A stretch of 64,000 bases of DNA from Thermoanaerobaculia bacterium (GTDB lineage: Bacteria > Acidobacteriota > Thermoanaerobaculia > Multivoradales > J023): the NCBI GenBank assembly GCA_030431255.1, contig JAUIJL010000022.1, positions 83,583-147,582 on the forward strand, given 5' to 3'. The notes beneath the pieces were generated by a model. It did no database searches, was not told the DNA's origin, and worked only from the letters and a program-made list of their open reading frames with translations. The translations under genes and the position numbers were made by a program. Each line of letters begins with the position of its first letter. The first letter of the stretch is position 1. Below are positions 59,329 through 64,000 of this stretch, in pieces.

Positions 59329-59458
59329 AGCTTATCTTAATGGCTGCGGGCCGCCGACGCCGAGCCGCGATTTCCGTCGGCCTTGGTAGACGGCGTTCCT
59401 CAGCAGCTCTTCCGATATATTGGCGTGCCAGGATACGACGATCATTAGGAGCTCATCC

Positions 59459-61726
59459 GTGCTGAGATCTCAACCCTCCCCAGCCCCAAGGCCTCCGCGA
59501 TTTTCGGCCTGTCACGGGCGCGTCCGATCCAAGGCTGTTCAATCCAAGGCCGGGCTCTTGCTCTCGGTCTTGATCTGCGTGTTCTCTACCGGCCCGAGCC
59601 CGGCCTGGGCAGACTCCAAAACACCCGATGATCAGCAGCCCAATTCCGCTAGCTCGCAGCTCAGGAATCAGCGTCGCGCGGTAGGAACGGCCGAAAGGGT
59701 GAATTTCGCCCCGCACCCCGCGGGGCTGAGCGGCTTTCGAGCCGAACGACCTTGGCAGCACACCGTGAGCCGACCCGGCGCCGCGTTTCTCAAACCCCGC
59801 TTCACCCGAGTCGACTTGAAACCCGGCCATATCTTGCGAATCCTCGACGCTCAAGGGCGAGAAATCGAGAGTATCACCGGCCAGGGACCGAGCCTCGGCG
59901 AGTCCTTCTGGGGCCTTTCCGTGCCCGGAGACCAAATGACCCTGCGGCTCGACATGGCGAGCTCCAGAGACACCTACGAGCATCCGCCCTTTCGGCTCGA
60001 GCAGCTGGTAGTGGGAGACACCGAGGTGATGTCGTCCTTCTTGCCGTCGTGGACCGACCCTCAGCTACCCGCCGCCGCCAAGAGCATCTGCGAGCCCGCC
60101 GAATTCACGGACGCCATTTGCCACCAAGGAGACGGCCCCCGCTGGACCAACGCCCAAGCCACCGCCGGGATTTTGGAGATCGTCGGAGACCAAGCCTTTT
60201 TCTGCACCGGGGTCAACGTTTCGCCGCGGAACCTGGTGTTGACCACCGAAAGCTGCCTGGCCGACACGGCTGCGTGTGAAAACGCCGAATTCATCTTCGG
60301 TCATTATCGGGAATCCTGTGGCTCCGGTGACGTATCCCCGGCATGGCAGTCCTACCGCTGTTTGGAAACCGTGGCGTCCTCACCCTTCGACAACCAATGC
60401 GAGCCGGAAGCCGGGCGTTTGGATTTCTCCCTCCATCGCATCGACGGTGAAGCCGCCGTCACCTGGGGTTACGCAGACCCCGACCCGACGCCGCTCAGCT
60501 CCGGAGAAGGCCTCTACATTTTTCAGCACGCCGATGGTCGGCCCCTCGAGCTGAGCGAGGGCAGCGGCGCGGACGTGGTGGTGGACGGACAGACCCTTCG
60601 CTACTTCGGCTCCCTCGACACCGAAAGCTCCAGTGTCGGAGCGCCGGTCTTCCGCGATTCCGATGACCGCCTGGTGGCCCTGCACCATTGCGGCGGCTGC
60701 GCATCTCCGGGTTTGGGAAATCGGGGAGTGATGATGTCGGATATCGAGCCTTTGATCGCCCCGTTCCTATGTGAAGCCGGCGTGACCCTCGAGCCCATCG
60801 CGTCCGACGACTTCTCCCCCGTCTCCGGCAACGGCGACTCCGTGCTCGATCCCGGCGAGACCTGGCAGCTCGTCCCGCGCGTGCTCAACGCCGCTTGCAC
60901 CGCCAACGCCGGCACGATTACCGCCGATTTTCAGGCCAACGTCGGCTCCGTGCCGATCACCTTGCTCGATGCCACCTCGACTTTTGGGGATCTGAACGCC
61001 GGGGCTTCCGGAAACGGCACGCCGATTCGATTCACGGTCGGCGCGGGCCAAAGCTGCGACGGCGAAGTCGTCCTCGACCTGGTGTCGATCACCGCCAATG
61101 AAGGCGCCTTCTCCGGCGAGCCCGCCTACGCCTCAAAAGAAATCGGCGAGGTGCCCACGTCAACTTTGCTGAGCGAAGGCTTCGACAGCGGCATCCCCAT
61201 GACCTGGGCCGTCGACCACCAAGGGACCGGCGTGGGCGAGGGCTCCACTTGGACCACCGACGATCCGGGACAGCGAGACCTCTTCCCCTCGGCCTTCGCA
61301 ATCGTCGACTCGGAATTCCTCGGCCCCGGCCTGACCATGGACGAAAGCCTGATCACCCCGATCATCGACACCACGGGTTTTTCGAATCTCACCCTGAAAT
61401 TCGACCATCAATTCCGCTGGTTCAACGGCGAAATGGACGAAAAAGCCGACGTCGAGGTCCGCTCATCGGCCACCTCCGGTGCTTGGACCCAGGTCGTGAG
61501 ATTCCAGGGCGCAGACGCCCTCGGCTCCGAGCAAGCGGACCTCAGCGCCTCAGGCGCCGCCGACCTCCAGATCCGGTTCCGCTACTTCGATGCCGAATGG
61601 GAATGGTGGTGGGCAATCGACCAAGTCGAGCTGCTGGGTGACAACGGCAGAATGTGTTTCACCGGCATCTTCGCCGACGGATTCGAATCCGAGAACACCG
61701 CCGCCTGGAGCCGGACGGTTCCTTGA
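59459..61726 (+). CDS. Secreted trypsin-fold protein with C-terminal DGFESENTAAWS motif
   Basis: Protease-like region 60150-60780; C-terminal GIFADGFESENTAAWSRTVP; start uncertain. Confidence 0.75.
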   Translation: MLRSQPSPAPRPPRFSACHGRVRSKAVQSKAGLLLSVLICVFSTGPSPAWADSKTPDDQQPNSASSQLRNQRRAVGTAERVNFAPHPAGLSGFRAERPWQHTVSRPGAAFLKPRFTRVDLKPGHILRILDAQGREIESITGQGPSLGESFWGLSVPGDQMTLRLDMASSRDTYEHPPFRLEQLVVGDTEVMSSFLPSWTDPQLPAAAKSICEPAEFTDAICHQGDGPRWTNAQATAGILEIVGDQAFFCTGVNVSPRNLVLTTESCLADTAACENAEFIFGHYRESCGSGDVSPAWQSYRCLETVASSPFDNQCEPEAGRLDFSLHRIDGEAAVTWGYADPDPTPLSSGEGLYIFQHADGRPLELSEGSGADVVVDGQTLRYFGSLDTESSSVGAPVFRDSDDRLVALHHCGGCASPGLGNRGVMMSDIEPLIAPFLCEAGVTLEPIASDDFSPVSGNGDSVLDPGETWQLVPRVLNAACTANAGTITADFQANVGSVPITLLDATSTFGDLNAGASGNGTPIRFTVGAGQSCDGEVVLDLVSITANEGAFSGEPAYASKEIGEVPTSTLLSEGFDSGIPMTWAVDHQGTGVGEGSTWTTDDPGQRDLFPSAFAIVDSEFLGPGLTMDESLITPIIDTTGFSNLTLKFDHQFRWFNGEMDEKADVEVRSSATSGAWTQVVRFQGADALGSEQADLSASGAADLQIRFRYFDAEWEWWWAIDQVELLGDNGRMCFTGIFADGFESENTAAWSRTVP

Positions 61727-61734
61727 AAGGGACA

Positions 61735-62157
61735 CTACTCAATCCCGAAAACAAACCTCACTCGTTCAGGGCTGCCCAACCTACCCGAGAGATAGTCCAT
61801 CAGGCCTATGACCAACAAGGCCGCAACGCTGAGCTCTTCTCGGCGAATATTTAGGTGGGCCAAGGCCAAGTGGATTTCCGAAGCGTTGAGCCAGCTGATC
61901 TGCTCACTGGAATAGGAGAAAAAAAGCTCTTCGTAAATTTGATCCGACATGGGAGTGGGAAGCCCACGAGGTCGGAATAGCGGACTCTCTCCTTCATTCG
62001 ACCTGAATCCTGAGATGGCAGCGAAGAAGCGGTAGTCTTTTCCACCCCGCAAATCCACGTAGCGATCAAGTGGGATGACCCGTCCGGTCTTCACCGAGAA
62101 CGGCTTTTCCAAAGTTCTGTCGTCGTATTCGAGAAAACCGTCGATGCCACTACCCAT
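61735..62157 (-). CDS. Immunity-like protein 2 (paralog of 62150-62590)
   Basis: Shares RGLP-P-S ... SW(L/V) ... GxERVR pattern with the neighbouring gene. Confidence 0.6.
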   Translation of the reverse strand: MGSGIDGFLEYDDRTLEKPFSVKTGRVIPLDRYVDLRGGKDYRFFAAISGFRSNEGESPLFRPRGLPTPMSDQIYEELFFSYSSEQISWLNASEIHLALAHLNIRREELSVAALLVIGLMDYLSGRLGSPERVRFVFGIE

Positions 62158-62590
62158 GTTTCTCTCCCGGAACAACGCAGTACAACAGACGTACACGCTC
62201 TCTTCCCACCTGGAGCGCCAAGATCTTCATCGCCTTTAATAAGAGACCGGTTCCGATATCGACTTGTTCAGGATCAATCTGACATTCCCTCAGATGCTCT
62301 TGAAGCTCGAGATGCGAAACCCAGCTGAGGTGCGCCGCCTGAGACGACAACCTTTGTTTGAGCTCGCGTAGCGCCCATGGCGAGACGGGATCTGGTAGCC
62401 CTCTAGCAGGAAATGACCGCAGAAGCTTCAACAATAAGGGGCTGCATTCTTCGCGTAAAGCCCGATAAGAGGTGAATGGCAAAGCCTGGTCTGGCACCTT
62501 GAAAGGCCGCTCCCCTTCGTTGCCGCCACAGACTTCGTCGTACTCAATAACAGCCTCTAGAACATACAAGTCTTCTGGGAAGGTACTCAC
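62150..62590 (-). CDS. Immunity-like protein 1, start overlaps RHS stop
   Basis: GTGA overlap with RHS gene; no recognised family. Confidence 0.6.
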   Translation of the reverse strand: MSTFPEDLYVLEAVIEYDEVCGGNEGERPFKVPDQALPFTSYRALREECSPLLLKLLRSFPARGLPDPVSPWALRELKQRLSSQAAHLSWVSHLELQEHLRECQIDPEQVDIGTGLLLKAMKILALQVGRERVRLLYCVVPGEKHG

Positions 62591-63861
62591 CTTTTCCAGC
62601 CTTTCATGGGCAGCACCCTAATGATTACGTTGTTCGTTTGCTGGATTTGCTTGAGAGTCCTGAGAAAAGACGGAGAGACTAGACCACTCCGGTTTTCGGG
62701 AATCGCTACGACTAAGACTCTCGCCTTAACTGCCGACCCAGGGATAGTAGGAAGATCTTGATGCGATTTTTTCGGCCGGAAGCTCGGATGCCTTCCAAGA
62801 TCATCCGCAACTTTGCTGATTTGGTGTAGAAGGTTTGAGGACTTGCGATTGGCTTGATAGGTCTTGAAGGAAGTCACGGTCCCATCGCGATAGTCGTCCA
62901 TATCCCGATACGCGGTTGCGTTTGCACCGAATTTGCGTTCAAGAAAGCCACCTGGTTCGTTCGGGCCAGCGGGAACGGCTTCGGAATTCCTTAGAATAGC
63001 CCTGATTCCTGAATCGACGAAGGCAAAAGCTAAGGCGGACAGTGCTCCAGCCAGCTCAATTCGAGCTTGATGATTTACGTAAAGTAGCGTGGCGCGACCG
63101 ATTGTAAGAACAGTGCTACGGTAGGCAGTGATTGCAACCGACTGAATGCCGGCAGCAACGCCACGGACTGCATTCGCAAAGGCCTGGCTTACCAGAGACT
63201 CGGCTCCGTTGGGGTCAACTCGATTCAGAGGATCCAACTCAGAGTAGACATAATCATTGAAGCTCAACGGGCGAAAACGCTCACCTTCCCACGGGTCGAC
63301 CGATCTAAATCGACCTGCCCCGAAATCCAGCCACCGTACCCGGTGGTATCCCAATCCCGCCGCCGACTTCGGCTGGCCAGTAAATCCATAATCCTGACTC
63401 GACACTCCCAAGCTTCTCCCGAACGCGGAGTAATCCAACCGCTCCACCATCCCGCCCAACGCATCCGTCAACCCGCGGACGCTCCCTAGGCCGTCTAAGT
63501 GGTAGTGAAGATCCTCGGATCCGGCACGGCTGAGGCCGAGCAATTGGTCGCCTGCTCGCACGTAGACCGCTTTAGGGTCTCCTGCGCGGAATTCCGTGAC
63601 GACATGACTCAGCCAACCGCTGTCGTCCACCAGATAGCCCGTGGTGTCGGTCTGACCGCCGACCGTCTCCGTGCTTTTCACCCGATTGCCGTTGACGTCG
63701 TAGGTGGTCTCGACTTTGACGCCTTTGGTGGTCTCCACTTCCAGTAGGCGATCCTCGGACCACCATTGATAGGACCGTCCCGGCTCCGGCCAGATCTCCG
63801 GCTGTTTCTTGATCCGACCGCCGCGATCCCACTCGACCCGCTGGCCGTTGTGTTGGACCAT
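62587..63861 (-). CDS. RHS-repeat C-terminal protein with nuclease-like toxin tip (5' end uncertain)
   Basis: YDVNGNRVKSTE, YHLDGLGSVRGLTDALG, GYHRVRWLDFGAGRFRSVDPWEG, NRVDPNGAE boundary, then unrelated tip; frame open upstream to window end. Confidence 0.85.
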   Translation of the reverse strand: MVQHNGQRVEWDRGGRIKKQPEIWPEPGRSYQWWSEDRLLEVETTKGVKVETTYDVNGNRVKSTETVGGQTDTTGYLVDDSGWLSHVVTEFRAGDPKAVYVRAGDQLLGLSRAGSEDLHYHLDGLGSVRGLTDALGGMVERLDYSAFGRSLGVSSQDYGFTGQPKSAAGLGYHRVRWLDFGAGRFRSVDPWEGERFRPLSFNDYVYSELDPLNRVDPNGAESLVSQAFANAVRGVAAGIQSVAITAYRSTVLTIGRATLLYVNHQARIELAGALSALAFAFVDSGIRAILRNSEAVPAGPNEPGGFLERKFGANATAYRDMDDYRDGTVTSFKTYQANRKSSNLLHQISKVADDLGRHPSFRPKKSHQDLPTIPGSAVKARVLVVAIPENRSGLVSPSFLRTLKQIQQTNNVIIRVLPMKGWKR

Positions 63862-64000
63862 GCGGTCCCGGCTGTCGTACCGGGTATAACCAAAGGCACC
63901 GCACCGGAATCTTGAATTCCGAGCTTTTGTTGGGCTCTTGTAACCGAGCCCGGGGCAAAGGTGGGCAGAGGGAAAGAATTCAGAGTGGGAAGGATCGTTC

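Follow-up and report, generated by a model that had tools for sequence, protein, structure and literature searches.

The stretch of DNA analysed here (the window) comprises 64,000 nucleotides from a Thermoanaerobaculia bacterium whose genome assembly spans 10.2 Mb in 54 contigs, and its end is the end of contig C3. At this end lies an RHS reading frame that is followed by two small genes, called A and B (Table 1). The frame is still open at the contig end, with the front of the gene beyond view. A preliminary description of the locus had placed the start of the gene at position 63861, which proves to be merely the first ATG in this open frame. Its account of the gene junctions agrees with our coordinates: the TGA stop codon of the RHS gene and the GTG start codon of gene A share the sequence GTGA, a 4-nt overlap, and the ATG start codon of gene B lies within gene A, the two genes having 8 nt in common. 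A large protein gene on the opposite strand (window 59420-61726, plus strand) converges on gene B and ends 8 bp from the stop codon of B; its product terminates in ...IFADGFESENTAAWS.

Table 1 Features at the contig end of the window
Feature	Position in window	Strand	Basis or remark
RHS frame	62587-63999	(-)	Open to window end; protein ends ...GWKR
RHS core, 3' part (YDSRDRM...NRVDPNG)	63205..63879	(-)	TIGR03696; 5' part of gene outside view
Pre-toxin linker, hydrophobic	62992..63204	(-)	Position after DPNG; composition
Toxin tip (candidate), 134 aa + stop	62587..62991	(-)	59% identical homologue on C38; weak structure model
Immunity-like gene A, 146 aa, GTG start	62150..62590	(-)	Homologues on C38 and C12
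Immunity-like gene B, 140 aa, ATG start at 62157	61735..62157	(-)	PHROG_10141-related; AF2 model
Repeat, in-frame join to RHS core at TACGAC (Y-D) codons	63874..64000	(-)	Contig end

A profile search identifies an RHS-associated core in the window frame (TIGR03696, 42.5 bits against a cut-off of 32.5), which ends at NRVDPNG and gives way to a non-RHS segment as had been described. This segment measures 205 aa, close to the ~190 aa estimated earlier, and ends in GWKR. The core protein is 70-85% identical to that of RHS genes on contigs C29, C40, C48 and C1, and the tips behind the same core on C48, C1 and C29 are unrelated to the one in the window. The window gene thus has the organization of an RHS polymorphic toxin, in which a core domain precedes a variable C-terminal tip. 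Furthermore, GC content falls from 0.594 in the RHS core to 0.51-0.53 in the four segments that follow it (linker, tip, A and B). At third codon positions the GC content of these segments is 0.44-0.61 (0.44 in the linker), as against 0.68 in the core. Such a drop is what an imported tip cassette would show.

The genome carries 48 matches to the RHS core, of which 47 exceed the cut-off, and many of its RHS tips have overlapping small genes downstream. This arsenal is very large and its tips are diverse, including a YwqJ-like deaminase (L043) and a PT-TG pre-toxin tip (L046); single overlapping immunity genes are seen behind many of them.

The last ~127 bp of the window differ from the sequence of this RHS subfamily and constitute a repeat common to two other contig ends. 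It is 98.4% identical to the end of C43 (L201) and 96.3% identical to the start of C32 (L142), and the RHS sequence to which it is joined in frame, at TA[CT]GAC (Tyr-Asp) codons, differs among the three copies. These joins indicate that the RHS gene of the window is rearranged or interrupted just upstream of YDSRDRM. The repeat has no match in Rfam, and a known ribozyme-type intron end is therefore unlikely. Possible identities are a shared leader and the terminal part of a multi-copy element with YD codons as its target. Within the limits of a short-read-like assembly, the cassette could be an orphan module like those found in rhs and cdi loci (PMC3150448).

A second complete cassette resides on contig C38 and has the same order of tip, A and B, with an immunity-like gene directly downstream of the tip at both loci. 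The two cassettes share 59% identity in the tip, 33% in A and 40% in B, and the second half of the linker is also conserved in the C38 copy. At the start of C38 (L002:2-757), the tip is joined to YD repeats in a frame that lacks the RHS core and the DPxG motif, and comparison with C48 reveals two in-frame internal deletions within 240 bp.

Two toxin-less remnants of the cassette occur on C12 and C42, and a damaged copy of B on C48. C12 carries the 3' part of A and all of B, without a toxin, behind an RHS N-terminal region matching DUF6531, and this region runs into A (L004:962-1894). C42 is likewise toxin-less; there, B lacks ~23 residues at its start and continues the reading frame of an RHS N-terminus (L007:1132-1743), which matches the beginnings of two RHS frames, of 1881 and 1904 aa, on C29 and C1. 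These fusions are either deletion scars or assembly joins that have retained B. On C48, a closely related RHS core is followed by an unrelated tip and an unrelated immunity gene, and then by a frameshifted remnant of B (L051:4200-4450). The reading of the locus as a toxin tip with paralogous immunity genes, proposed earlier from the window, is supported by its gene order, the unrelated tips on the same core, the second cassette, the two toxin-less remnants and the tree of A and B described below.

Orphan rhs-CT and cdiA-CT modules have been described (PMC3150448, PMC3967940), and it is quite possible, if a little short of probable, that the window cassette belongs with them, as a silent module that lacks functional delivery and persists because it provides immunity or serves as a donor in recombination. 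Such a history would suit the joining of the RHS core at YD codons to the repeat instead of the normal upstream RHS sequence, the loss of the RHS core from the C38 copy through in-frame deletions, and the fusion of RHS N-termini to immunity genes on C12 and C42. A silent gene is less easily reconciled with the frame that stays open through the repeat junction up to the contig end.

The similarity between proteins A and B, which had been noted by eye, is evident in a BLASTP alignment (26% identity over 141 columns, E 5e-10) and in a profile-profile comparison (99.0%, E 4.5e-18). In a tree that includes free-standing relatives, a single branch with support of 99/95 separates the three A copies from the four B copies, and the C38 sequences branch first in both halves. 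This topology shows that one duplication, which gave rise to A and B, is older than the divergence of the cassettes and so predates their spread. The earlier proposal of duplicated immunity therefore stands as to paralogy, with a duplication that is older than the cassettes themselves.

The subsequent histories of the two genes differ. Between C3 and C12, synonymous divergence is about threefold greater in A (dS 1.7) than in B (dS 0.6), and at the DNA level the two loci are similar only within B, up to its stop codon. This unequal divergence means that A and B have not always travelled together. Identity among the C3, C12 and C42 copies of B is 80-89%, whereas the A copies of C3 and C12 share 41%. 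Values of dN/dS for B among C3, C12 and C42 (0.12-0.21) follow a purifying pattern, as expected of a gene evolving under constraint.

These contrasts bear on whether both genes serve the present toxin. Sequential displacement of toxins with retention of their immunity genes has been proposed for V. cholerae T6SS arrays (PMC5361080), and by analogy A alone might be the cognate immunity gene, with B retained from an earlier, displaced toxin and protecting only against the toxins of other strains. The frameshifted B remnant behind an unrelated tip and immunity gene on C48 fits such a history, as do the higher identity of B relative to A with its matching synonymous contrast, the sharp end of DNA similarity inside B, and the persistence of B without a toxin on C12 and C42. 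However, the order of tip, A and B is identical in both cassettes that still have the tip, the branching orders of A and B are parallel, and the paralogy of A and B is unlike the stacks of unrelated immunity genes that displacement usually leaves. We regard displacement as possible but somewhat doubtful.

No Pfam, NCBIfam or PADLOC model matches A or B, and known immunity families (SUKH and others) were ruled out by the lack of a Pfam match. Searches of plasmids and initial searches of viral sequences for relatives of A and B were empty; viral relatives were reached by using a homologue from a genome of the same order (G010) as an intermediate. The free-standing relatives comprise this homologue, one in a genome of the same phylum (G120), one in an Acinetobacter phage and others on 24 viral contigs, and they share the pattern MGCDIH..E, RNY.LF..LAGVR, PRGLP, GHSHSWLT..EL and VRIVFWFDN. 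Two copies of B match the family PHROG_10141 (hmmscan E 3.3e-4 and 1.4e-3), and alignment with hhalign to the viral sequences of this family connects both B (98.6%, E 1.4e-15) and A (E 2.3e-7). These similarities show that A and B derive from PHROG_10141, a family of unknown function that occurs mainly in phages but also in bacteria and has no Pfam model, an origin that the preliminary description had not seen.

Proteins A and B retain the scaffold motifs of this family (MGxDI..E, Y.LF..LAG.R, RGLP, SWL..E and VR.VF) but are shorter and lack the His of DIH, the histidines of GHSHS and the invariant C-terminal FD; the DIH His and the C-terminal FD are absent in all A and B copies. With conserved polar residues gone and the scaffold kept, A and B are derived branches of PHROG_10141, rather than typical members. 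The same pattern would suit a shift from an enzymatic or ligand-binding role to that of a binding inhibitor.

Structure prediction, suggested earlier as a check on the locus, was informative for protein B and much less so for the tip. An AlphaFold model of B built from 23 sequences is confident (pLDDT 88.4, pTM 0.85), and Foldseek searches with it return only uncharacterized phage proteins (probability 1.00, E 1e-3) and no match among solved structures in the PDB (best E 0.98). The tip model, built from two sequences, is poor (pLDDT 42.7), and because of this its Foldseek search, which gave no fold match, is uninformative. Sequence searches of the PDB with the tip and immunity profiles likewise returned nothing meaningful.

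The preliminary description had also likened the tip to PD-(D/E)XK nucleases on the basis of an E...D...SxK layout. The candidate catalytic residues are E18 (62938-62940), D30, D32 and D33, S41 (62869-62871) and K43 (62863-62865), all of which are invariant in the window and C38 tips. They sit in the best-conserved block of both tips (GGFLERK.GANAT.YRD.DDYRD.TVTS.KTYQANR), and both tips present conserved acidic residues followed by [DES]-x-K in the order expected of this nuclease superfamily. The CdiA-CT DNase of E. coli TA271 is reported to have the same residues in the same order, with different spacing, at its active site (Glu177, Asp198, Ser209 and Lys211; PMC9086364). However, shuffled tips contain motifs of this type at rates from 6% for S-x-K up to 14% for a looser form, and such motifs are also present in 2 of 28 (strict) or 5 of 28 (loose) other RHS tips, so the motif is a lead, not proof.

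In the weak model, a helix (16-24) is followed by two strands (30-34 and 38-43), a second helix (52-67), a strand (91-98), further helices and a last strand (122-129); E18 lies in helix 1, D32 and D33 lie in strand 1, and strand 2 contains S41-x-K43. This predicted order is compatible with a PD-(D/E)XK fold. No Pfam, NCBIfam or PADLOC model matches the tip in profile searches, and this includes Tox-REase and CdiA-CT profiles of Pfam and NCBIfam. A nuclease of the PD-(D/E)XK type is thus a plausible but unproven identity for the tip: the layout claimed earlier recurs in both tips and in a compatible order, while profile and fold matches are lacking and shuffled sequences produce it at appreciable rates. 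The tip could instead be a toxin of another kind, such as another nuclease fold or a different enzyme, the E...D...SxK series then being due to chance; this would accord with the poor, unmatched model and a motif not rare in shuffles, but we think it rather less than probable, because the motif falls within the best-conserved block of two tips just 59% identical and the helix-strand-strand-helix-strand order of the weak model fits PD-(D/E)XK.

Relatives of the tip outside the source genome were absent from pattern searches of viral contigs and 85,462 species genomes, from tblastn searches of plasmids and phages, and from profile searches of 396 genomes of the phylum and 150 of the class. Two weak phylum-level matches are not RHS genes, and a weak class-level match (E 0.002) lies at L107.

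The window contains a genuine toxin-immunity cassette of a known kind and ordinary layout; what is new are the families of its tip and immunity genes, and the tie to a phage family is unexpected. On balance, we think it somewhat probable that this polymorphic-toxin cassette consists of an RHS-borne tip of ~134 aa, probably a PD-(D/E)XK nuclease, against which paralogues A and B both protect. In the scheme that we infer for delivery, toxicity, nuclease chemistry, and immunity with its division between A and B, the RHS shell would carry the C-terminal tip out of the cell. The 1881-1904-aa RHS relatives carry a hydrophobic N-terminal leader (the window contig ends inside the gene) and the T6SS sheath protein VipB was not found in the source genome, so Sec-type export and delivery by contact would be likelier than T6SS. 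Once delivered, the tip would act as a metal-dependent PD-(D/E)XK nuclease, with E in helix 1, D in strand 1 and S-x-K in strand 2, and would attack the DNA or tRNA of a neighbouring cell. Protein A, presumably translated via its stop-start overlap with the toxin gene, and protein B, whose translation would be coupled to that of A by their overlap, would each shield the producer, presumably by binding to the toxin and blocking it. The pair arose through a single old duplication of a PHROG_10141-family gene, with the scaffold kept and conserved polar residues lost.

The cassette resembles catalogued RHS and CDI modules (Zhang et al. 2012, PMC3482391; Poole et al. 2011, PMC3150448) in its core ending in DPxG, its variable tip of lower GC content and the overlapping immunity gene downstream, and the source genome resembles them in its orphan copies and rearranged remnants. 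Unlike those modules, its tip, A and B match no Pfam, NCBIfam or PADLOC model. The order of E, D and S-x-K is shared with the PD-(D/E)XK CdiA-CT toxins of E. coli TA271 and Y. pseudotuberculosis YPIII (PMC9086364), from which the tip differs in spacing, in its RHS rather than CdiA carrier and in having no detectable sequence or fold match to them; A and B belong to another family than the immunity proteins of these toxins.

Tandem paralogous immunity genes are already known (PMC3482391). As in homogeneous polyimmunity loci, A and B are tandem paralogues in one orientation with minimal spacing, but such arrays stand apart from a toxin gene, whereas A and B are two genes only, chained by overlaps directly behind one. 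Their family is not among the immunity families listed for these loci (PMC3482391). Two immunity proteins for one nuclease are also known from Tde5-Tdi5a-Tdi5b (PMC13392607), in which, as in the window with its candidate nuclease, two immunity genes lie directly downstream of the toxin and one immunity type is widespread outside toxin contexts. Tdi5a and Tdi5b have no structural relationship to each other, unlike the paralogous A and B. This anciently duplicated pair offers a simple test of whether paralogues share one toxin or split targets.

With this cassette, the RHS arsenal gains a toxin tip and an immunity family that are both unclassified. The cassette also links that immunity family to an abundant phage protein family without known function, providing a first testable idea of what the phage family can do. 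Specifically, PHROG_10141 ('MGCDIH' proteins) might be a scaffold that binds and blocks nucleases and was turned twice into an immunity protein here, although we consider this unlikely. If it were so, phage members of the family may inhibit host nucleases or toxins. The genome of the same phylum that has a free-standing PHROG_10141 relative (L068:3942-4364) also carries, amid unrelated genes, a lone C-terminal remnant resembling A and B (L067:5380-5550, E 2.7e-10).
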